This document shows, one piece after another, positions 23,366 through 43,823 of a stretch of DNA of 64,000 nucleotides. This DNA is from Geothrix edaphica. GTDB taxonomy: Bacteria; Acidobacteriota; Holophagae; Holophagales; Holophagaceae. Position 1 is the stretch's first letter, and each line of letters starts with the position of its first letter. Made by a program: the position numbers and the translations under genes. The stretch is taken from positions 124,001 to 188,000 of the forward strand of contig NZ_BSDC01000002.1 in NCBI RefSeq assembly GCF_030268045.1, read 5' to 3'. The notes below the pieces were generated by a model that saw nothing but the letters and a program-made list of their open reading frames with translations, did not search any database and had not been told where the DNA came from.

Positions 23366-24142
23366 TCAGGAGGCGGCCAAGAACCCGGCGAGGGCGCCCC
23401 GGTCCCGCAACTCCCTCAGCAGGCTCAAGGTGGCAGGCAGGCCCGTCAGCCCCAGGGCCGCCATGGCTTCGGCCAGGCTCTCCGTCTGGGCCCGGGTCAG
23501 CAAGGCCGCGGCGGCCGGGGTCAGGTCCATGAGCTGCGCCTGCCCCTCAGCATCCCGGTGGGCCAGCAGGTGGGTGGGGCATGCCTCGGGCACGGGCTGG
23601 GCTTCGCTCACCTGGTGGACCGCGTGGCGGTACGACACCACCTGGGTGGCCGGATGGAGCACGAGGCGATCCTGTGGCCCAGGATCGGGATGGAGCCCCG
23701 GAGGAGGATCAGTCTCCGGAAACCGCGCCACCAGCACTTCCAGGATCTCGGCGTGAGCCAGTTCCAGGAGGTAGGGCCAGGTGGCCTGGCCCCAGCCCGT
23801 CTCCGCCAGCCAGCCCAGGAAGGCCGGGGCGATGTCCCGGTAGTGCCGGCTGGCCACGCAGCGCGCCTGGAGGAAGGCCTCGATGCAGGGCTCCCAGGCG
23901 TCCTCCCGCTCAAGCAGGGCCCTGGTGATGGGGAACATGGCCTCGATGGGGTCCAGCAGGCTCAGGCGGGCCAGCTCGCGGTAGGCGGCCAGGCCTCCGC
24001 TGAACTGCCGGAAGCTCTGGGCGTCCGCCTCGGGCAGCCCGTGGCTCCGGGCGAATCTGGCGGGATCCTCCTCGAAGGTGGCCCCTTCCGGATCGAGTAT
24101 CAGGGCCGCCAGGGCCCGCTGGAGGGCCAAGGCCTCAGCCAT
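23366..24142 (-). CDS. DUF2063-type RiPP partner protein (BufC/HvfC-like)
   Basis: 258 aa. The N-terminal region has the DUF2063 look (LQRALAALILDPEG, ARFARSHGLPEAD, YRELARLSLLDPIEAMFPIT, FLQARCVASRHYRDIAPAFLGWL). In bufferin, Hvf and methanobactin pathways a protein of this type binds the peptide and assists the DUF692 iron enzyme. The C-terminal ~100 residues form a second, winged-helix-like domain. ATG 24142 overlaps the DUF692 stop by 8 bp. Third gene of the operon peptide-DUF692-DUF2063. Confidence 0.8.
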   Translation of the reverse strand: MAEALALQRALAALILDPEGATFEEDPARFARSHGLPEADAQSFRQFSGGLAAYRELARLSLLDPIEAMFPITRALLEREDAWEPCIEAFLQARCVASRHYRDIAPAFLGWLAETGWGQATWPYLLELAHAEILEVLVARFPETDPPPGLHPDPGPQDRLVLHPATQVVSYRHAVHQVSEAQPVPEACPTHLLAHRDAEGQAQLMDLTPAAAALLTRAQTESLAEAMAALGLTGLPATLSLLRELRDRGALAGFLAAS

Positions 24143-24989
24143 GGCCGCCTCCCACCGGCACCGCCAGGACCTCATCGTAGGCGGCCTGGAGGCGGGACCG
24201 CTCCGCCAGCAGGTCCTCCAGGTCCGGGATGTGGTTGTCGCGTTCGAGCAGCACGGGCACGGGACGCCCCAGGCGGGCCAGGGTCCACTGCATCAGCTCG
24301 ATGACGGGGTCGATGACGTCAGCGCCGTGGGTATCCACGGTGAGCGCCCCGAAGCGCTTGTGACCCGCGATGTGCAACTGGGCCACGCGGTCCAGGGGCA
24401 TGCGCGCCAGCCAGGCCTTGGGGTCGAAGCCGAAGTTGAGGGCATTCACGTAGACGTTGTTCACGTCGAGCAGCCAGCCCACGTCGGCCCCCTCCAGCAC
24501 CTCGGTGATGAAGGCGGCCTCGTCCATCTCGGCCCGGCCCAGCTCGGCGTAGTAGGTGATGTTCTCCAGGAGGAGTGGCACGGGCAGGCGGGCCTGGAGG
24601 TCCCGGGCCCGCGCCACCGTGTGGCGGACGGCCTCCCGCGTGAAGGGGATGGGCAGCAGCTCGTGGAGGCAGCTGCCGTCCACGCTGGTGAAGCAGAGGT
24701 GCTCGGAGTGCCAGGGCGTCCCCGTGCGGACGAGGAAGCGCCCCAGATCCCGCAGGTAGTCCCCGTCCCAGGGATCGAAGCCGCCCACGGAGATGGCCAG
24801 GCCGTGGGTGAGGACGGGGTCGCGGTCGAGGATGGCGCAGGCGTCCCGGTGGGGGCGCCCGCCATCCCCGACCACGTTCTCGGGGCAGGTCTCCCAGAAG
24901 GGCACGCCGTGGGCCGGCCGGGCCACCACCGCCTCCAGATGGGGGCGGCGGAGGCCCAGGCCCACGCCCATGAAACGGCCCAGTGCCAT
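24135..24989 (-). CDS. DUF692 multinuclear iron enzyme (BufB/HvfB/MbnB-like)
   Basis: 284 aa TIM-barrel enzyme. Family stretches: GVGLGLRRPHLEAV, FWETCPENVVGDGG, HGLAISVGG, WHSEHLCFTSVDG, PLLLENITYY, WLLDVNNVYVNALN, QLHIAGHKRF, TVDTHGADVIDPV and LLERDNHIP; the His/Asp/Glu residues there are the expected iron ligands. Known members (MbnB, BufB, TglH) are O2-dependent enzymes that rearrange cysteine in precursor peptides, e.g. to oxazolone/thioamide or thiooxazole. Lies 13 bp downstream of a Cys-rich small exported peptide, the likely substrate. Confidence 0.88.
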   Translation of the reverse strand: MALGRFMGVGLGLRRPHLEAVVARPAHGVPFWETCPENVVGDGGRPHRDACAILDRDPVLTHGLAISVGGFDPWDGDYLRDLGRFLVRTGTPWHSEHLCFTSVDGSCLHELLPIPFTREAVRHTVARARDLQARLPVPLLLENITYYAELGRAEMDEAAFITEVLEGADVGWLLDVNNVYVNALNFGFDPKAWLARMPLDRVAQLHIAGHKRFGALTVDTHGADVIDPVIELMQWTLARLGRPVPVLLERDNHIPDLEDLLAERSRLQAAYDEVLAVPVGGGHG

Positions 24990-25002
24990 GGGGGCCTCCT
25001 GC

Positions 25003-25326
25003 CTACTTCTTCTCTTCCTTCTTGTCCTTGCCGCAGCTGCCCTCTTTCTTGTCCTTCTTGTCCTTCTTCATGTCCGCGCTGCCGCAGCCACCGCCGCCGC
25101 CGCAGCCGCCTTCCTTCGCCTTGCCCTTGGCGTCCTTCGCGTCCTTGGTCTTCGCCTTGTCCTTCGCGTCGGGCTTGGCGTCCTTGGAGCCGCAGTCCCC
25201 GGCCTGGGACAGGGCCGCCTCCGAGCCGAAGCTGCCCACGGGCGTGGCCGCGACGGCGGTGGAACCCCCCGCCACCAGGGAGCCGGCCGCGAAGAGGGTG
25301 GCGGCACCAATGAGTTTCGTGATCAT
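25003..25326 (-). CDS. Cys-rich exported precursor peptide, bufferin-like
   Basis: 107 aa. Signal peptide ITKLIGAATLFAAGSLVAGG with AVAA cleavage-like end, then a Lys/Asp/Ala-rich linker and four cysteines (45, 75, 81, 98), every one followed by glycine. Two EGxCG motifs are present (E72-GGC-G and E95-GSC-G), close to the EGKCG motif of bufferin precursors, with a Gly7-type cluster between. It precedes DUF692 and DUF2063-type genes, the canonical precursor position. ATG 25326 with AGGAGG. The body is more Lys-rich and lower in complexity than described bufferins (DUF2282), so it may be a divergent class. Expected to be modified in the cytosol, exported, and to bind copper or another metal. 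Confidence 0.7.
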   Translation of the reverse strand: MITKLIGAATLFAAGSLVAGGSTAVAATPVGSFGSEAALSQAGDCGSKDAKPDAKDKAKTKDAKDAKGKAKEGGCGGGGGCGSADMKKDKKDKKEGSCGKDKKEEKK

Positions 25327-25586
25327 GAAATCCTCCTGCGGGCACACCCGCGGCAGGGGCCGCCGCGCGGCCCCGGAAACAGTCGTCCATGCCCATCCCC
25401 TTCCGGTGGTCCGGATTCCAGGGCTGGCCAGGTCGTCAGCCTGTGGGGTGCTGGCATCCGTAAAGATGTGACGACCTTTTTCGGATTTCGCGTGTTTTCC
25501 CATGGTCGGGCTTAAAAGCACCTATCCACATGACCTAACATGGCCATGGGGAACCGGAAGCGAACGCTCCCCGGGGGAGAATCCAG

Positions 25587-26027
25587 ATGCCGAATATTGC
25601 TTCCATTCTGAAGGTGGAAATCGTGCGGTTGGCCCGCAAGGAATTGCGGGCTGAAACGGAAGGCCTCAAGAAGGCCGCTGCCCAGTACCGGTCCGACCTC
25701 TCGACGTTGAAGCGGAAGGTGGCTTCCCTGGAGAAGCAGGTGGCCCGTCTGGAGAAGAAAGCACCGGGACGGGTGGCACCCCAGGCAGACGGGGAAGGAG
25801 CCACCCGCACGAGATTCAGCGCCAAGGGGCTGGCGAGCAAACGGCACAAGCTGGGGCTGTCCGCCGCCGAGATGGGCGCCCTCCTGAACGTCTCCGCCCA
25901 GACCGTCTACAACTGGGAAGCGGAGAAATCGAAGCCCCGCCAGGCCCAGCTGGCGGCCATTGCCGCCGTGAGAAGCCTGGGGAAACGGCAGGCCAAGGCG
26001 CGCCTCGAGGAGTTGGCGAATTCGTGA
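25587..26027 (+). CDS. Coiled-coil plus HTH DNA-binding protein
   Basis: 146 aa. Residues ~10-60 form a coiled coil (LKKAAAQYRSDLSTLKRKVA, LEKQVARLEKK). Residues ~75-125 hold an XRE-like helix-turn-helix (KRHKLGLSAAEMGALLNVSA, QTVYNWEAEKSKPRQ). Likely a transcription regulator or nucleoid-type protein. ATG 25587 with GGGGGAGA. Divergent from the bufferin-like operon across 260 bp in which I see no clear ECF-type promoter, so it could regulate that operon, but this is only positional inference. Confidence 0.7.
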   Translation: MPNIASILKVEIVRLARKELRAETEGLKKAAAQYRSDLSTLKRKVASLEKQVARLEKKAPGRVAPQADGEGATRTRFSAKGLASKRHKLGLSAAEMGALLNVSAQTVYNWEAEKSKPRQAQLAAIAAVRSLGKRQAKARLEELANS

Positions 26028-37802: not shown

Positions 37803-38068
37803 GCCGCGCCATTGATCGCAGGGTGAAGGCCCTTGAGGAGCAAATCGAGCCTCGCCAGGTCCATCGGGTTATACGATTCCACCATCCGGATGGAACCGTG
37901 ACCTACCTAGCAGGGGAAGAACCGGCACCCGGCGAGGATTGCGACTTTATCAACATCCTTTCCAGTGAGGTCATTGAGGGCCGCCCCGCCACTGATGACG
38001 AATTGGAGGCCATGTATCCAGGCCGCAGAGAACGGATCGCACAGAGGGAACTCAAGGGGGGCCAATGA
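37799..38068 (+). CDS. Small protein, R-x-x-ALE N-terminus
   Basis: 89 aa beginning SRAIDRRVKALEEQIE, then a beta-rich part (VHRVIRFHHPDGTVTYL) and an acidic segment. GGAGGA upstream; ATGA overlap with the preceding gene. Unknown function. Confidence 0.55.
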   Translation: MSRAIDRRVKALEEQIEPRQVHRVIRFHHPDGTVTYLAGEEPAPGEDCDFINILSSEVIEGRPATDDELEAMYPGRRERIAQRELKGGQ

Positions 38069-38313
38069 GCCGTTTAGACAAACGCATCCGAGCCTTGGAG
38101 CGCCGCCGCAAGGCCTCCAAGAATCCCTGGCGCATCGTAATGGGTGAATTGCCAGAATCAGCACTGCTTGAAGTTCTTGGCGTTGCTGTAGATCAAGAAA
38201 TGGGGAGGATTTCGGATGCAGTATTTGCAATCCAATGCCTACAGATCATCAACGACTCAGCCCCGAATCTAGAAACGAGGGATCGGTGGATGTCTCTCCT
38301 CGGTGCTGCGTGA
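38065..38313 (+). CDS. Small protein, R-x-x-ALE N-terminus
   Basis: 82 aa beginning SRLDKRIRALERRRKA; ATGA overlap with the preceding gene. N-terminal heptad matches its neighbours, while the C-terminal part differs (NDSAPNLETRDRWMSLLGAA). Unknown. Confidence 0.55.
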   Translation: MSRLDKRIRALERRRKASKNPWRIVMGELPESALLEVLGVAVDQEMGRISDAVFAIQCLQIINDSAPNLETRDRWMSLLGAA

Positions 38314-38498
38314 GTGGCAATCTTGAACGCCGATTGAGTGCCCTAGAACGGGTCAAGCCAGGTCTCCCGGCAACAACGGAGAACCTCTTAGAAGTCGCCC
38401 GACGCATCCGCGCCGGTGGTTCTATGCCCGATGACTGGGCAAACCTCTGGTCGCCCTCCCAGCTCCTCCGCATGGCGGACCTGCAAGTGGGGCGATGA
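38310..38498 (+). CDS. Small protein, R-x-x-ALE N-terminus
   Basis: 62 aa from GTG 38310 (GTGA overlap): SGNLERRLSALERVKPGLP then a helical tail. Third R-x-x-ALE relative in a row, suggesting duplication of a short N-terminal module fused to different C-termini. Confidence 0.5.
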   Translation: MSGNLERRLSALERVKPGLPATTENLLEVARRIRAGGSMPDDWANLWSPSQLLRMADLQVGR

Positions 38499-38555
38499 GA
38501 GTAGGCTAGCGGCACAGATACCGCCCTTCGGCTGCAAGCCTCGCCTGGAGACAGC

Positions 38556-38786
38556 ATGAGAAAAGTTTTGCCTCTGCTTACCTTAATTGCCTTGGTCGGC
38601 TGTGACAGGCCACCGACTCGGGCCGAAATGGATCATCTGAATTCACAGGTTGCCTACCTCACAAACAGGGCGAATGAATTGGAATCGAAGGTGTCCGAGC
38701 TCGAATCGGAATTGGAGGATGCCAAGCGAGCTTGCGAGGCAAACGCCTGTGACTGTCCGGTGGGCACCATCCACTTCAATTACTAG
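38556..38786 (+). CDS. Small lipoprotein with coiled coil
   Basis: 76 aa. Signal sequence with lipobox (LLTLIALVGC), then a coiled coil (LNSQVAYLTNRANELESKVS, ELESELEDAKRA) and a Cys-containing tail (CEANACDCPVGTIHF). GGAGACAGC before ATG. Reminiscent of phage-type Rz1/spanin or entry-exclusion lipoproteins in size only. Confidence 0.6.
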   Translation: MRKVLPLLTLIALVGCDRPPTRAEMDHLNSQVAYLTNRANELESKVSELESELEDAKRACEANACDCPVGTIHFNY

Positions 38787-38827
38787 GGGCATCCCCACGG
38801 GCATTGGGCAACGGCCTGGAGGTTCCG

Positions 38828-38929
38828 ATGGACCAAGAAATCCGCCGCCGCATCCTCACCTGGTGGGTTTCATCCATGATCCTGACTTTCTTCGGCGCGT
38901 GGATGTGGGATCGCATCATGGGTCGATGA
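38828..38929 (+). CDS. 33-aa single-span membrane protein
   Basis: MDQEIRRRILTWWVSSMILT then FFGAWMWDRIMGR: one predicted transmembrane helix with basic residues at the N-side. GGAGG 5 nt upstream of the ATG is a strong start signal. Its stop overlaps the next start as ATGA. Could be a holin-like or small toxin-type peptide; no homologue recognised. Confidence 0.55.
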   Translation: MDQEIRRRILTWWVSSMILTFFGAWMWDRIMGR

Positions 38930-39066
38930 CCGGCAAAGTGCCAAAAAGTGCCACCGCCTTGCGTGGAGATGCGAGTATCGGCCTCACACTCGCAACCATC
39001 GTTTTCGCCACAGTGGGACAACAGTGTGACAACGACAAAAACGGCCACCTTGGGGGGTGGCCGTAA
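38926..39066 (+). CDS. 46-aa small membrane-type protein
   Basis: Contains a hydrophobic stretch ASIGLTLATIVFATVG and a short polar tail. ATGA-coupled to the 33-aa membrane protein. The 3' end includes the 20-bp repeat at 39014-39033, so coding and end-recognition sequence overlap. Last gene before attR. Confidence 0.45.
   Translation: MTGKVPKSATALRGDASIGLTLATIVFATVGQQCDNDKNGHLGGWP
39014..39033. repeat. Terminal 20-bp repeat near attR
   Basis: TGGGACAACAGTGTGACAAC; partner of 31181-31200 in the same orientation, 47 bp from attR. Confidence 0.5.
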
Positions 39067-39080
39067 GTGCTTGATTTTGC

Positions 39081-39126
39081 TGGCTCCGGAGGAGGGATTT
39101 GAACCCCCGACCTAGTGATTAACAGT
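39081..39126. repeat. attR: 46-bp direct repeat within tRNA-Asn
   Basis: Identical to attL (31004-31049). The crossover lies inside the anticodon-loop-to-3'-end segment, so the tRNA is reconstituted intact. Confidence 0.95.
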
Positions 39127-39156
39127 CACCCGCTCTGACCCCTGAGCTACTCCGGA
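39081..39156 (-). tRNA. tRNA-Asn (anticodon GTT)
   Basis: 76 nt including encoded CCA. Acceptor stem TCCGGAG/CTCCGGA, D-arm GCTC..GAGC, anticodon arm GGTGA-CTGTTAA-TCACT, T-arm GGGGG-TTCAAAT-CCCTC. Serves as the integration site; its 3' 46 bp (39081-39126) are the attR copy supplied by the element. Confidence 0.97.
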
Positions 39157-39237
39157 AAGGGCAAGGGTCCATTCTACCTGAGGCGGGCGCAGATTCAAGC
39201 GGGGAGGGGCGGGACCTGTGATCCCGGTCGCTCGGGG

Positions 39238-39822
39238 CTAGTTCTTCTGCAGTTCCATCAGGATCTGGCGGGCGGCGGCCTTGAGGGTCTCGATGACGCC
39301 GGTGCCCTGGTTGGCCACGGCTTCGATCATGGGTTCGCCCCGGAACCGGAGCAGGCGCTCCATCTCGGCGGCAGGCACGGCAGAGGGCATGTCCCGCTTG
39401 TTCAGCTGGAGGACATAGGGGATCGACCGCACGTCGAAGCCGTTCTCCTTGAGGTTGGTGGCCAGGTTCGCGATGGACTCGATGTTGGCCTCCATGCGCG
39501 CCTTCTGGCTGTCAGCCACGAAGATGATGCCGTCGCAGCCGCGGAGGATGAGCTTCCGGCTGGCGTCGTAGAAGACCTGGCCCGGCACGGTGTAGAGGTG
39601 GAAGCGGACCTTGAAGCCCTTGACCATGCCCATGTCCAGGGGCAGGAAGTCGAAGAAGAGGGTGCGGTCCGTCTCGGTGGCGAGGCTGACCAGCTTGCCC
39701 CGCTTGTCGGGGTTGGCCTGTTCGAAGATCCACTGGATGTTCGTCGTCTTCCCGCAGAGGCCGGGACCGTAGTAGACGATCTTGCAGTTGATCTCGCGCG
39801 ATGCGTAGTTGATGAAGGTCAT
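39238..39822 (-). CDS. mglA: MglA-like small Ras-type GTPase
   Basis: 194 aa. P-loop GPGLCGKTTN, then FHLYTVPGQVFY (G3-like region), and NKRD for guanine specificity. MglA sets cell polarity and directs type IV pili/gliding complexes with its GAP MglB. Start MTFINYAS at 39822, 13 bp after mglB, in the usual mglB-mglA operon. The longer upstream frame overlaps mglB and is rejected. Confidence 0.93.
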   Translation of the reverse strand: MTFINYASREINCKIVYYGPGLCGKTTNIQWIFEQANPDKRGKLVSLATETDRTLFFDFLPLDMGMVKGFKVRFHLYTVPGQVFYDASRKLILRGCDGIIFVADSQKARMEANIESIANLATNLKENGFDVRSIPYVLQLNKRDMPSAVPAAEMERLLRFRGEPMIEAVANQGTGVIETLKAAARQILMELQKN

Positions 39823-39835
39823 GACGTCCCCGGCC

Positions 39836-40333
39836 CTAGTCGCCGAAGAGGCGGTCGATGTCTTCGTCCGTGATCTCCGAGAAGGGGCTCTCGAAGCGGC
39901 TGCCGCCATCGGATTCCTTCTGCGCGCGCTGCTCGACCTGGTCGAAGATCTCCTGGAGTTCCTTGCTGGCCTTCTTCACCCGCAGGCGCACCAGCGCGAG
40001 GCTGGAATTCTGGTCGAAGATCACCACCAGGATGCCCCGCTTGCCCACGATGGAGATGTGCAGGTTGTCCTTCTCGCCCTCGTGGAAGAGGAGGCTGAAC
40101 TCCTTCTCGCCGATGAGCTTGGCCAGGCCGTCCGTGGCGGCCACATTGCCGGCGGTGAGGGAGGCCAGGCTGGTGGCGTCGATGCTCTTCACGTCCCCGG
40201 CGGCCGCGATCTGCTGGCCGTTCTTGTCCACCAGGAACACCACCTTGGCGGAGGCATCCTTCTGGAGGCGGCTGATGATCTCGTGGAGGAGCTTGTACTC
40301 CTCCTCGAACATGATGAGATCAAGCTTTGCCAC
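39836..40333 (-). CDS. mglB: MglB-like roadblock/LC7 protein
   Basis: 165 aa roadblock/LC7 domain (EEEYKLLHEIISRLQKDASA, KVVFLVDKNGQQIAAAG, LFHEGEKDNLHISIVGKRGI) with an acidic C-terminal tail. GTPase-activating partner of MglA. I place the start at GTG 40333 because GGAGG lies 5 nt upstream; the longer ATG (40372) has no such site. Confidence 0.9.
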   Translation of the reverse strand: MAKLDLIMFEEEYKLLHEIISRLQKDASAKVVFLVDKNGQQIAAAGDVKSIDATSLASLTAGNVAATDGLAKLIGEKEFSLLFHEGEKDNLHISIVGKRGILVVIFDQNSSLALVRLRVKKASKELQEIFDQVEQRAQKESDGGSRFESPFSEITDEDIDRLFGD

Positions 40334-40375
40334 AAGAACCTCCGGCGGGACTGCTATCTGTGAGGATAGCACTTT

Positions 40376-41224
40376 TCAGTAGGCCTCCGATCCGGCTCCC
40401 CCCTGAATCACGGCCACGGAGGCGGAAAGCCCCAGGCGCGTCGCCCCGGCCAGGACCATGGCCAGCGCCCCCTCATAGGTGCGGATGCCGCCGGAGGCCT
40501 TCACCCCCATGGCCGTGCCCACGGTCCGGCGCATGAGCGCCACGTCGGCCTCCGTAGCCCCCCCGGTGGAGAAACCCGTGGAGGTCTTCACGAAATCGAG
40601 ACCCGCCTCCAGGGCCAGGGTCGAGGCCCGGGTCTTCTCTGTGTCGGTGAGCAGGCAGGTCTCCAGGATCACCTTCAGCACCGTGGGCGCAGGGACCGCG
40701 GCCCGCAGCCCCTCCAGGTCCCGACGGACCGTGTCCCAGTCGTCGGCCTTGGCGGCCCCGACCGCCAGCACCATGTCCACTTCCTGGGCCCCGTCCCGCA
40801 CGGCCAGTTCTGCCTCGTGCGCCTTGGCGCGCAGAGATGAGGCGCCCAGGGGGAAGCCCACCACCGTGCAGGTCCGGACCGCGCTGCCCTTCAGCAGGGA
40901 GGACGCCAGGGGCACCCACAGAGGATTGATGCAGACCGAGGCGAACCCGTGCTTCAGGGCCTCGGCACAGAGGCGCTCCACCTGGGCCCCGGTGGCCTCG
41001 GCCTTCAGCAGGGTGTGGTCGATGAGCGGGGACAAGTCCCAGGGCCCGGCGGGGAGCGCGGCCTGGCCGGCCGGCCGGTGGTGGAGCCCGGCCTGGTCCC
41101 GGAGCATGCAGAATCCCTCCACGCACCCCAGGAGCTGGGGTCTCCCCCCTTCGGGAAGCACCTGGAGGCGGGCGCGGACTTCAGCGGTGAGGTCGAGGAG
41201 CGGATCGATCATGGCTTCCATCAT
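40376..41224 (-). CDS. deoC: Deoxyribose-phosphate aldolase with N-terminal extension
   Basis: Cleaves 2-deoxyribose-5-P to glyceraldehyde-3-P and acetaldehyde. Core ~220 aa: LIDHTLLKAEATGAQVERLC, SVCINPLWVPL, EVDMVLAVGAAKADDW, KVILETCLLT, and the Schiff-base Lys in DFVKTSTGF, then VKASGGIRTYEGAL. Preceded by ~65 residues absent from minimal DeoC. Start uncertain among 41224, 41221 and 41212. Confidence 0.92.
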   Translation of the reverse strand: MMEAMIDPLLDLTAEVRARLQVLPEGGRPQLLGCVEGFCMLRDQAGLHHRPAGQAALPAGPWDLSPLIDHTLLKAEATGAQVERLCAEALKHGFASVCINPLWVPLASSLLKGSAVRTCTVVGFPLGASSLRAKAHEAELAVRDGAQEVDMVLAVGAAKADDWDTVRRDLEGLRAAVPAPTVLKVILETCLLTDTEKTRASTLALEAGLDFVKTSTGFSTGGATEADVALMRRTVGTAMGVKASGGIRTYEGALAMVLAGATRLGLSASVAVIQGGAGSEAY

Positions 41225-41257
41225 GGCCCCGGGGCGCCGCACCGGAAAGCGGTACGC

Positions 41258-41285
41258 GAAAAAGCGGGCCGAAGCCCGCTTTTTC
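41258..41285 (-). terminator. Terminator of the Lys/Ala repeat gene
   Basis: 12-bp stem GAAAAAGCGGGC/GCCCGCTTTTTC with loop CGAA; T-rich on the minus strand, 18 bp after the repeat-protein stop. Confidence 0.85.
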
Positions 41286-41303
41286 GTGAACCAGTGAAGC
41301 CTG

Positions 41304-42305
41304 TTACTTCTTGGCCTCTTCCTTCTTCTCGGCGGCCTTCTTCTCAGCCTTCTTCTCAGCCTTCACGGCCTTCTTCTCGGCCTTGGCAGCCTTCTCAGCC
41401 TTCTCTTCCTTCTTCTCGGCGGCCTTCTTCATGGCCTTCTTCTCGGCCTTGGCAGCCTTCTCGGCCTTCTCGTCTTCGGCGGTCAGGGCCTTCTTGGCCT
41501 CGGCCTTCTTCTCTTCCTTCTTGGGCTCGGCCTTCTTGGCGGCCTTCTTCTCAGCCTTGGGAGCGGCCTCAGCCTTCTTCTCCTCGGCGGTCATGGCCTT
41601 CTTCTCGGCGGCAGGAGCGGCCTCGGCCTTCTTGGCAGCCTTCTTCGCCTTCTTGGCCTTCTTCTCGGCCTTGGGGGCGGCTTCAGCCTTCTTCTCTTCG
41701 GCGGTCATGGCCTTCTTGGCCTCGGCCTTCTTCTCTTCCTTCTTGGGCTCGGCCTTCTTGGCAGCCTTCTTCTCAGCCTTGGGAGCGGCCTCAGCCTTCT
41801 TCTCCTCGGCGGTCATGGCCTTCTTCTCGGCGGCAGGAGCGGCCTCGGCCTTCTTCTCGGCCTTCTTGTGGTGCTTCTTGGCCTTCTTCTCGGCCTTGGG
41901 GGCGGCTTCAGCCTTCTTCTCTTCGGCGGTCATGGCCTTCTTGGCCTCGGCCTTCTTCTCTTCCTTCTTGGGCTCGGCCTTCTTCTCGGCCTTCTTGGGC
42001 TCGGCCTTCTTCTCTTCGGTGGTCAGGGCCTTCTTCTCGGCGGCAGGAGCAGCGTCGGCCTTCTTGGCAGCCTTCTTGTGGTGCTTCTTGGCCTTCTTCT
42101 CGGCCTTGGGAGCGGCCTCGGCCTTCTTCTCCTCGGCGACGGTCAGGGCCTTCTTGGCCTCTTCCTTCTTGGGCTCGGCCTTCTTCTCAGCCTTCTTCTC
42201 GACCTTCTTGGTCTCGACCTTCTTCGCTTCGGGCTTCTTCGCCTCTTCCGCGAACACGGGGCTGATCAGAGCGGCGGCGACGAGCAGCGCAGCAAGCTTC
42301 TTCAT
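41304..42305 (-). CDS. Exported Lys/Ala/Glu-rich repetitive protein
   Basis: 333 aa. Signal peptide KKLAALLVAAALISPVFA, then a low-complexity body built of repeats around AMTAEEKKAEAAPKAEKKA with AKKHHKKA and AEPKKEEKKAEAKKA variants. No hydrophobic core or catalytic motif; expected to be helical or disordered and highly charged. Resembles histone-H1-like or AlgP-like tails, but the signal peptide suggests the periplasm or envelope. Repeat nature makes its length prone to change. Function unknown. Confidence 0.75.
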   Translation of the reverse strand: MKKLAALLVAAALISPVFAEEAKKPEAKKVETKKVEKKAEKKAEPKKEEAKKALTVAEEKKAEAAPKAEKKAKKHHKKAAKKADAAPAAEKKALTTEEKKAEPKKAEKKAEPKKEEKKAEAKKAMTAEEKKAEAAPKAEKKAKKHHKKAEKKAEAAPAAEKKAMTAEEKKAEAAPKAEKKAAKKAEPKKEEKKAEAKKAMTAEEKKAEAAPKAEKKAKKAKKAAKKAEAAPAAEKKAMTAEEKKAEAAPKAEKKAAKKAEPKKEEKKAEAKKALTAEDEKAEKAAKAEKKAMKKAAEKKEEKAEKAAKAEKKAVKAEKKAEKKAAEKKEEAKK

Positions 42306-42452
42306 GGGGGTTCTCCCTGGGTTGATCCGGCACGGCCGGAAGTGGTCTCCAGGAAGCAGCATTCGGGCCAATATTCATATTGAATCAAATCAATGCTTAA
42401 ATGATATCCGCACTCCCGGGATCCGTTGCATTCTGCCACTCGTGGCAGCCTG

Positions 42453-43823
42453 CTACTCGCCTTCGTGGAATCCGTAGCGCTTGAGCTTCCGATAGAGGGT
42501 GGTCCGGTCCACCCCGAGGATCTCGGCGATCCGCTGCTTCTCCTTGTGCCGCCCCACGAGGATCTGGATGTAGCGGCGCTCCAGCTCGTCCAGGGAAGGC
42601 CAGTCCTCGATCAGGGAGGGGGTCCCCTCGGGAGACTCCGGCCTCAGCAGGGCCCGCTTGAGCACGTCGGCCTGGATCTTGGCCGGCAGGTCGTCCACGG
42701 TGATCTCCCGGCCCCGGCTCAGCTGGGTCAGGTTCTCCACGGCATTGCTCAGCTCGCGCACGTTGCCCGGCCAGGAATAGGCCTCGAGCACCCGGCGCGC
42801 CTCCGGGTGCAGGTGGTAGGTCTGCTGATCCTTCTGGCCGAACTCGGCCAGGAAGTGGTCCAGCAGCGCCCCCACGTCGTCCCCCCGCTCCCGGAGGGGC
42901 GGAACCGCCAGCTCCACCACACTGAGGCGGTAGTAGAGGTCCTCGCGGAAGGTCCCGGCCTTCACCATCTGCTGGAGGTCGCGGTTGGTCGCGGCGATGA
43001 CGCGGGAATCCACCTTGATGGTCTTGTTGCCCCCCACGCGGCGGATCTCCTGCTCCTGGAGCACCCGCAGCAGGCGCACCTGGAAGCTGGGACTGGTCTC
43101 CCCGATCTCGTCCAGGAAGATGGTGCCGCCGGAGGCCTCCTCGAAGAGGCCCGGCTTCTCGTTCACGGCGCCCGTGAAGGAGCCCTTCACGTGGCCGAAG
43201 AGCTCCGATTCCAGCAGGGTCTCCGTCAGGGCGCCGCAGTTCACGGCCACGAAGGCGCGGTCCCGGCGGTCGCTGGAGAGGTGGATGCTGCGGGCCACCA
43301 GCTCCTTGCCCGTGCCGCTCTCCCCGGTGATGAGCACCGTGGCCCGGCTGTTCTGGAGGCTGGCGATGGTCTTGTAGACCGCCATCATCTTTGCGCTGGA
43401 GCCGATCATGAGGCTGCGCCGGGCCTTGGGCGAGGCGTCCTGGGTTGCCCCCTGGCCGGCGGACTGCCGGCGGGCGAGGGCCCGCGTCACCAGGGCCTTC
43501 AGCTCCTCGTTGTTCCAGGGCTTGCTGAGGAAGTCGAAGGCCCCCTCCCGCACGGCCTCGATGGCGGTCTCCAGGGTGCCGAAGCCCGACAGCAGGATGG
43601 TGTCCACGCCCAGGGGCTTGGCCTCCCGCAGCAGGTCCAGGCCGTCCTTCTTGGCCTCCAGGTTGATGTCGGACAGCAGCAGGTCGAAGCCGCCCTTCCG
43701 CAGCAGCTCGATGGCCCGATCGGGGTGTGTGGCCTTGGCCACTTCGAGCCCCATCGTCCCCAGCAGCTCCTCCAGGAACTCGCAGGTCTCCTTGCTGTCA
43801 TCCACCACGAGGACCCGGGCCAT
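42453..43823 (-). CDS. NtrC-family sigma54-dependent response regulator
   Basis: 456 aa. Receiver domain (~1-120: VLVVDDSKETCEFL, phospho-Asp in LLLSDINLE). AAA+ domain (~145-380) with Walker A GESGTGKE, sigma54-contact loop GSFTGA (variant of GAFTGA), Walker B GGTIFLDEIG, and arginine-finger region. Fis-type HTH at the end (RIAEILGVDRTTLYRKLKRY). No histidine kinase gene adjacent. Divergent from a secreted DUF4412-like protein, a possible target. Confidence 0.93.
   Translation of the reverse strand: MARVLVVDDSKETCEFLEELLGTMGLEVAKATHPDRAIELLRKGGFDLLLSDINLEAKKDGLDLLREAKPLGVDTILLSGFGTLETAIEAVREGAFDFLSKPWNNEELKALVTRALARRQSAGQGATQDASPKARRSLMIGSSAKMMAVYKTIASLQNSRATVLITGESGTGKELVARSIHLSSDRRDRAFVAVNCGALTETLLESELFGHVKGSFTGAVNEKPGLFEEASGGTIFLDEIGETSPSFQVRLLRVLQEQEIRRVGGNKTIKVDSRVIAATNRDLQQMVKAGTFREDLYYRLSVVELAVPPLRERGDDVGALLDHFLAEFGQKDQQTYHLHPEARRVLEAYSWPGNVRELSNAVENLTQLSRGREITVDDLPAKIQADVLKRALLRPESPEGTPSLIEDWPSLDELERRYIQILVGRHKEKQRIAEILGVDRTTLYRKLKRYGFHEGE

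Follow-up and report, generated by a model that had tools for sequence, protein, structure and literature searches.

A probable HvfABC-type captophorin operon with a variant Cys-Gly precursor in Geothrix edaphica

Enzymes of the MNIO (DUF692) family that work with type 1 partner proteins (PME1) are described as forming 5-thiooxazoles by a four-electron oxidation that uses O2 and a mixed-valent diiron site (PMC13097082; PMC13419390), and in the account given by the first of these sources all characterized MNIO-PME1 systems install this group and their products generally bind Cu(I) (PMC13097082). Among them, the EGKCG captophorins (HvfABC/oxazolin, gonophorin, fontiphorin and bulbicupramide) combine a signal-peptide precursor carrying repeated xGxCG motifs with an MNIO and a PME1 in the order A-B-C, and the bufferins Buf1 (DUF2282) and Buf2 (six or twelve Cys) share this gene order, Sec export and the MNIO-PME1 pair. 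MbnABC methanobactin and TglAHI pearlin likewise rely on an MNIO superfamily enzyme and a partner, but their precursors lack a Sec signal and their enzymes are distant. A 64,000-nucleotide stretch (hereafter the window) of the genome of Geothrix edaphica, a bacterium of soil or sediment, contains a compact three-gene cluster resembling these systems, and it raises the question of which of them it belongs to and what its peptide does.

Here, we describe the gene set, its conservation and its family placement, and propose, with a probability of about 0.75, that the cluster is an HvfABC-type (captophorin) operon in minimal form whose precursor is a variant one. Its product would be a thiooxazole peptide that is formed by an O2-dependent enzyme and, in the periplasm, sequesters Cu(I) when the cell is under metal stress.

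Gene layout and coding evidence

The operon lies entirely on the minus strand, which corrects the preliminary description, and begins with a 107-aa precursor peptide (25003..25326) whose ATG at 25326 is preceded by an AGGAGG at 25337-25332; in both the precursor and the MNIO gene this motif stands five bases 5’ of the ATG. The precursor carries a Sec-type signal at approximately residues 1–26/27 (MITKLIGAATLFAAGSLVAGGSTAVAA), assessed by eye and by a hydrophobicity scan, and a Lys/Asp/Ala linker. As previously reported, it has four Cys, each followed by Gly and two of them within EGGCG/EGSCG. They are residues 45, 75, 81 and 98; four Cys-Gly arose in about 0.1% of shuffles of the mature part, a chance of ~0.001. 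Thirteen nucleotides separate the precursor stop from the start of the 284-aa MNIO (24135..24989), placing a Cys-containing precursor with a Sec signal directly 5’ of an MNIO, the arrangement expected of a captophorin-type cluster. The MNIO stop in turn overlaps by 8 nt the start of the 258-aa partner (23366..24142), and the tight packing noted earlier for the precursor, DUF692 and DUF2063 genes is thus borne out. For the partner, the ATG at 24142 is the likely start rather than 24175, and its length is counted from there.

In the precursor ORF, six close relatives differ mainly at the third base of codons (158, 110 and 463 differences at first, second and third positions, respectively), and the codon differences comprise 343 synonymous and 239 non-synonymous ones. 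This distribution indicates that the frame is under coding constraint and that the ORF is real. Divergent from the operon, a small HTH_3 gene occupies 25587-26027 of the window on the plus strand; it is found in the same place in locus L142, and a search of the other context loci did not detect it.

Family placement of the precursor, enzyme and partner

We found no NCBIfam or Pfam family match above cut-off for the window precursor. The comparison with DUF2282 proposed in the preliminary description came back empty, with PF10048 matching neither the window peptide nor eight relatives at E values up to 10, and the phrase “EGKCG precursors (DUF2282)” used there had merged two different families. 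DUF2282 or any other Pfam identity was discarded, as the relatives gave only sub-threshold noise, and so was an NCBIfam CopL match that was sub-threshold and driven by composition. HvfA/EGKCG-oxazolin membership also found no support: the window precursor contains no EGKCG at all, unlike the EGKCG captophorins, carrying [D/E]G[G/S]CG and GGGGGCGS sites, and it matches neither NF050188 nor NF050137, for which the best scores among the relatives’ precursors were 19.1 bits (cut-off 95) and 15.9 bits (cut-off 19.5), respectively.

The gonophorin precursor of Neisseria gonorrhoeae reads ...AQGSCGASKSAEGSCG...GEGKCGEGKCG..., with QGSCG and EGSCG beside EGKCG. Gonophorin is presented as a proven 5-thiooxazole product in PMC13097082, whose text on gonophorin does not say whether the SCG sites themselves are modified. 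A second precursor, from a P. aeruginosa plasmid (L133), has three EGSCG sites and passes the KCGExKCG_twice (HvfA-type) model at 32 bits. Because EGSCG occurs in both, we regard Ser-Cys-Gly as variation within HvfA-type precursors, and the suggestion of a separate class is not supported. Within the HvfA-type captophorins, the operon precursor represents a motif variant specific to its lineage, present in Holophagaceae and mirrored in Myxococcota; particular to the Geothrix case are the exclusive use of Ser/Gly-Cys-Gly, the EGGCGGGGGCG form in the window subclade, and the existence of a parallel set in Myxococcota whose signals are lipobox-like. The L133 locus itself (pPALO11, 37878-43654) combines its EGSCG-rich precursor with DUF2063, DoxX and an ECF sigma/zf-HC2 pair, and its MNIO is 46.6% identical to that of the window.

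In Nannocystis, Polyangiaceae and other Myxococcota (L054-L072), DGSCG, EGSCGG or GCGAGTCG repeats occur in lipoprotein-like precursors upstream of MNIOs, and these precursors resemble a membrane-anchored version of the Geothrix peptide. The Nannocystis and Polyangiaceae loci are similar to the window operon in that DGSCGAKGDGSCG or KAEGSCGG repeats precede related MNIOs, and many of these loci also contain a PME1-like ORF. The Myxococcota GSCG loci differ in their lipobox-type signals, a longer gap to the MNIO and the loss in most of the second Arg of the enzyme, and their MNIOs are only ~45–54% identical to the window MNIO.

The window MNIO matches PF05114 at 291.7 bits (E=6e-87, cut-off 25), as expected of the enzyme of a captophorin cluster. 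Its best NCBIfam model is HvfB (NF003818) at 262.7 bits, below the equivalog cut-off of 360; BufB (NF050167) gives 248.5 bits, below the equivalog cut-off of 310, and the MbnB model 34 bits. Positions 62, 97, 142, 175, 206, 219, 221 and 249 are invariant and include the expected iron ligands, a role that we take from established knowledge of MbnB and TglH. The enzyme aligns with 3BWW, and Arg15/Arg16 and the catalytic Asp249 of FonB correspond to its R14/R15 and D251, so that it keeps the Arg-Arg pair and catalytic Asp of the EGKCG captophorins. It differs from them at the FonB Phe250 site, which is N252 here (ERDFNFP in the 3BWW alignment versus ERDNHIP). Across the loci this site is occupied by Phe in the Lys-Cys anchors carried on plasmids and by Asp in most enzymes of the Cys-Lys type; Holophagaceae and Polyangiia have Asn, His, Gln, Ser or Glu. 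This pattern is confounded with phylogeny and is no proof of co-evolution. As N252 matches neither the Lys-Cys enzymes (Phe) nor the Cys-Lys enzymes (Asp), substrate handling may differ.

In a maximum-likelihood tree of 118 MNIOs, the Holophagaceae enzymes group together (support 100/100). They share a clade (99/90) with the EGKCG/gonophorin MNIOs, NgoB among them, and with Myxococcota MNIOs that have Cys-Gly precursors, and they are separated from the bufferin MNIOs of the Cys-Lys and DUF2282 types (99/91). Since the EGKCG rows are long branches, we rechecked this split with most long rows removed; leaving out 12 long-branched rows and thinning Geothrix returned the same division (98/88). An Archangium/Myxococcus group has Cys-Gly precursors yet falls on the bufferin side of the tree, so precursor type tracks the tree imperfectly.

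These placements bear on whether the operon could be a bona fide bufferin, of the Buf1/DUF2282 or the Buf2 six-Cys type, whose precursor has decayed. We consider this very unlikely despite the shared A-B-C gene order, the signal peptide and the 248.5 bits with the BufB model: the precursor is unrelated in sequence to Buf1 and Buf2, shows neither a DUF2282 match nor a CKG six-Cys pattern and has Cys-Gly where bufferins have Cys-Lys, and the MNIO lies outside the Cys-Lys/DUF2282 clade, with Asn where Cys-Lys enzymes mostly have Asp. Moreover, Buf2-like CKG precursors do occur in other Acidobacteriota (L123-L130), and their MNIOs fall on the opposite side of the tree from the window enzyme. Of the earlier label “Bufferin-like RiPP operon”, the MNIO, the RRE partner and the signal-peptide precursor are well supported, while the bufferin assignment gives way to a position on the EGKCG/HvfB side.

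The partner matches PF09836 (DUF2063) at 40.3 bits (cut-off 27.2) and PF22106 (NGO1945_C, an RRE-like domain) at 44 bits (cut-off 27), and the HvfC model at 98 bits, below its curated equivalog cut-off. Its AlphaFold model (pLDDT 80.5) has 3DEE as best match (E=1.6e-5, Z=10.4), with TglI among the better fold matches (Z=8.0). PMC13097082 identifies 3DEE as NgoC, the partner protein of the gonophorin cluster. A DUF2063 domain, an RRE-type domain and the fold match to 3DEE make this protein a PME1 partner of the kind found in captophorin clusters.

Conservation, promoter and neighboring genes

The enzyme is present in 25 of 36 other genomes of the genus. The preliminary description had named the absence of the peptide beside DUF692 genes in relatives as evidence against its reading; instead, in 26 of 27 loci of the genus the gene directly upstream of the MNIO encodes a precursor that has both a signal and Cys-Gly sites, and in the remaining locus such a precursor lies one gene further upstream. 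Alignment with the precursors of 23 relatives revealed that C75 and C98 are invariant and C45 and C81 nearly so, and Gly follows 118 of the 121 mature Cys. The relatives carry one to five copies of [D/E]GSCGKDKK plus a KGSCGS site. In the window peptide and in L002-L007, its nearest relatives, EGGCGGGGGCGS stands instead, together with one EGSCGKDKK (two in L004).

The peptide might also be no substrate at all and only a neighbor of the enzyme genes, acting as an unmodified Lys/Cys-rich periplasmic metal-binding peptide. Its low-complexity composition would suit such a role, but we give this reading hardly any likelihood: flanking synteny is confined to the nearest relatives and the trio is retained across the genus even where the flanks change, the Cys-Gly sites are strictly kept while the linker varies, and Cys-Gly precursors adjoin related MNIOs in Myxococcota and Pseudomonadota.

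The single odd locus among the 27 (L152:6000-10100, G008:C1, G. fermentans DSM 14018; also L048) is a second MNIO cluster that encodes a precursor (SGSCGAGSCGG...DGSCGAGSCGG), a radical SAM/SPASM protein, an MNIO, a PME1 and YceI; here one peptide may be modified by two enzymes. None of 46 other Geothrix genomes has the radical SAM gene, whose product scores alike against several models, among them SbtM (a thiooxazole maturase, 105.9 bits) and the ACGX system (106.1 bits), far below the cut-offs. In two further loci (L028, G050:C38; L029, G042:C1) the MNIO is preceded by large ORFs, 306 and 463 aa long, in which GGCGF-like motifs occur along with other Cys motifs and which are possible protein-sized MNIO substrates; the PME1 profile found no partner in either locus.

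A scan for sigma-70 promoters upstream of the operon returned nothing, and alignment of the relatives’ upstream regions revealed a two-box element, [T/C]GTCACA-N15-GCACC, ~120 nt 5’ of the precursor start codon. In the window it reads CGTCACA-N15-GCACC (25447..25473, minus strand), the single match in the 64-kb window (0.06 expected) and in the 3.16-Mb genome; TGTCACA-N15-GCACC occupies the equivalent place in most relatives. The element extends to L024 and L026, deep members of the genus, though not to all loci. As an ECF gene clusters with the operon in many relatives, the two boxes probably serve the operon as a promoter for a sigma factor of the ECF type. Between element and start codon lies a presumed 5’ untranslated leader of ~120 nt (25327..25446, minus strand), in which two G+C hairpins just 5’ of the Shine-Dalgarno sequence (25327-25400, minus strand) are conserved in the leaders of L002-L023. 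Only 1 of 11 pairs displays a compensatory change, and because there is almost no covariation we do not claim the hairpins as a regulatory RNA.

In most Geothrix (L008-L023, L033-L045, L146-L149), PME1 is followed by YceI and in many then by an ECF sigma factor, a setting that differs from that of the EGKCG captophorins, and a GDT1-type cation antiporter gene lies upstream of the trio. The window subclade lacks these accompanying genes and carries FKBP at that position. Neither YceI nor ECF is a member of the window operon, both being absent from its cluster; homologues in the same genome (43% and 51% identity, respectively) are located away from it. No DoxX, zf-HC2 or copper gene was seen among the ORFs neighboring the window operon.

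Proposed function and its setting

By analogy with characterized homologues, we propose that the precursor, once synthesized in the cytoplasm, is bound by the RRE-type domain of the partner, while the iron- and O2-dependent MNIO would oxidize the Cys of [D/E]G[G/S]CG-type sites to 5-thiooxazoles, with the loss of four H each. The modified residues would most likely be C75, C81 and C98, and less surely C45. [S/G]CG sites are plausible substrates, as FonBC works with Ala, Arg or Thr replacing the Lys before Cys and requires a small residue after it. The modified peptide would then be exported by Sec and its signal removed, leaving a flexible Lys/Asp-rich chain whose mercapto-oxazole groups may bind periplasmic Cu(I), thereby buffering copper stress or a related metal stress. 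Expression would probably depend on an ECF-type sigma factor acting at the conserved two-box promoter.

The differing motif and Phe250-site residue could also mean that the MNIO makes another modification (for example an oxazolone/thioamide, Cys excision or a cross-link), or that the product binds another metal. Such a reading would accommodate the Asn, His, Gln, Ser or Glu of Holophagaceae and Polyangiia, the scores below equivalog cut-offs, and the YceI and ECF partners that relatives have instead of DoxX. We judge it unlikely, since characterized MNIOs with PME type 1 partners all give 5-thiooxazole, the catalytic Asp is retained, and 5-thiooxazole is still the product of FonB-F250A and F250D.

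Several observations count against the HvfABC-type reading: MNIO and partner fall below equivalog cut-offs, the window precursor has no family match, the Phe250 site is Asn, no copper gene or DoxX was seen beside the operon, and the nearest relatives lack YceI and ECF. A further one concerns oxygen, as G. fermentans has been called a strict anaerobe and MNIOs need O2 (PMC13419390). The G. edaphica genome contains three COX1-family (heme-copper-oxidase) genes, which make O2 exposure plausible, and a published proposal counts acidobacteria with high-affinity oxidases, Geothrix included, as potential microaerobes (PMC5900883). A copper-mine enrichment dominated by Geothrix reduces Cu2+ (PMC10946571), which fits a need for copper handling and is no test of the operon.

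If the HvfABC-type reading is right, the Cys-Gly (HvfA-type) thiooxazole metallophore branch would extend to Holophagaceae and be tied to Myxococcota; in their main text, as far as covered here, two landscape papers make no mention of Acidobacteriota or Myxococcota, and one of them profiles clusters mainly in Pseudomonadota. Precursors of this type are missed by current curated models. A bolder possibility, which we hold to be doubtful, is that Holophagaceae and Polyangiia contain one more captophorin lineage, made up of their Cys-Gly precursors ([D/E]G[S/G]CG, GCGAGTCG) and of MNIOs with a polar residue at the Phe250 site. This lineage would have a substrate code of its own and, in Geothrix, a separate ECF-controlled promoter and YceI partner, and would work in bacteria that are described as anaerobic or that grow at low O2; the G. 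fermentans radical SAM enzyme may then add a second, possibly O2-free, modification step. Geothrix offers a natural series of repeat numbers (1–5) and motif variants for how MNIOs read the surroundings of Cys, and raises the puzzle of when and why metal-reducing, reputedly anaerobic bacteria would handle copper with an O2-dependent enzyme.
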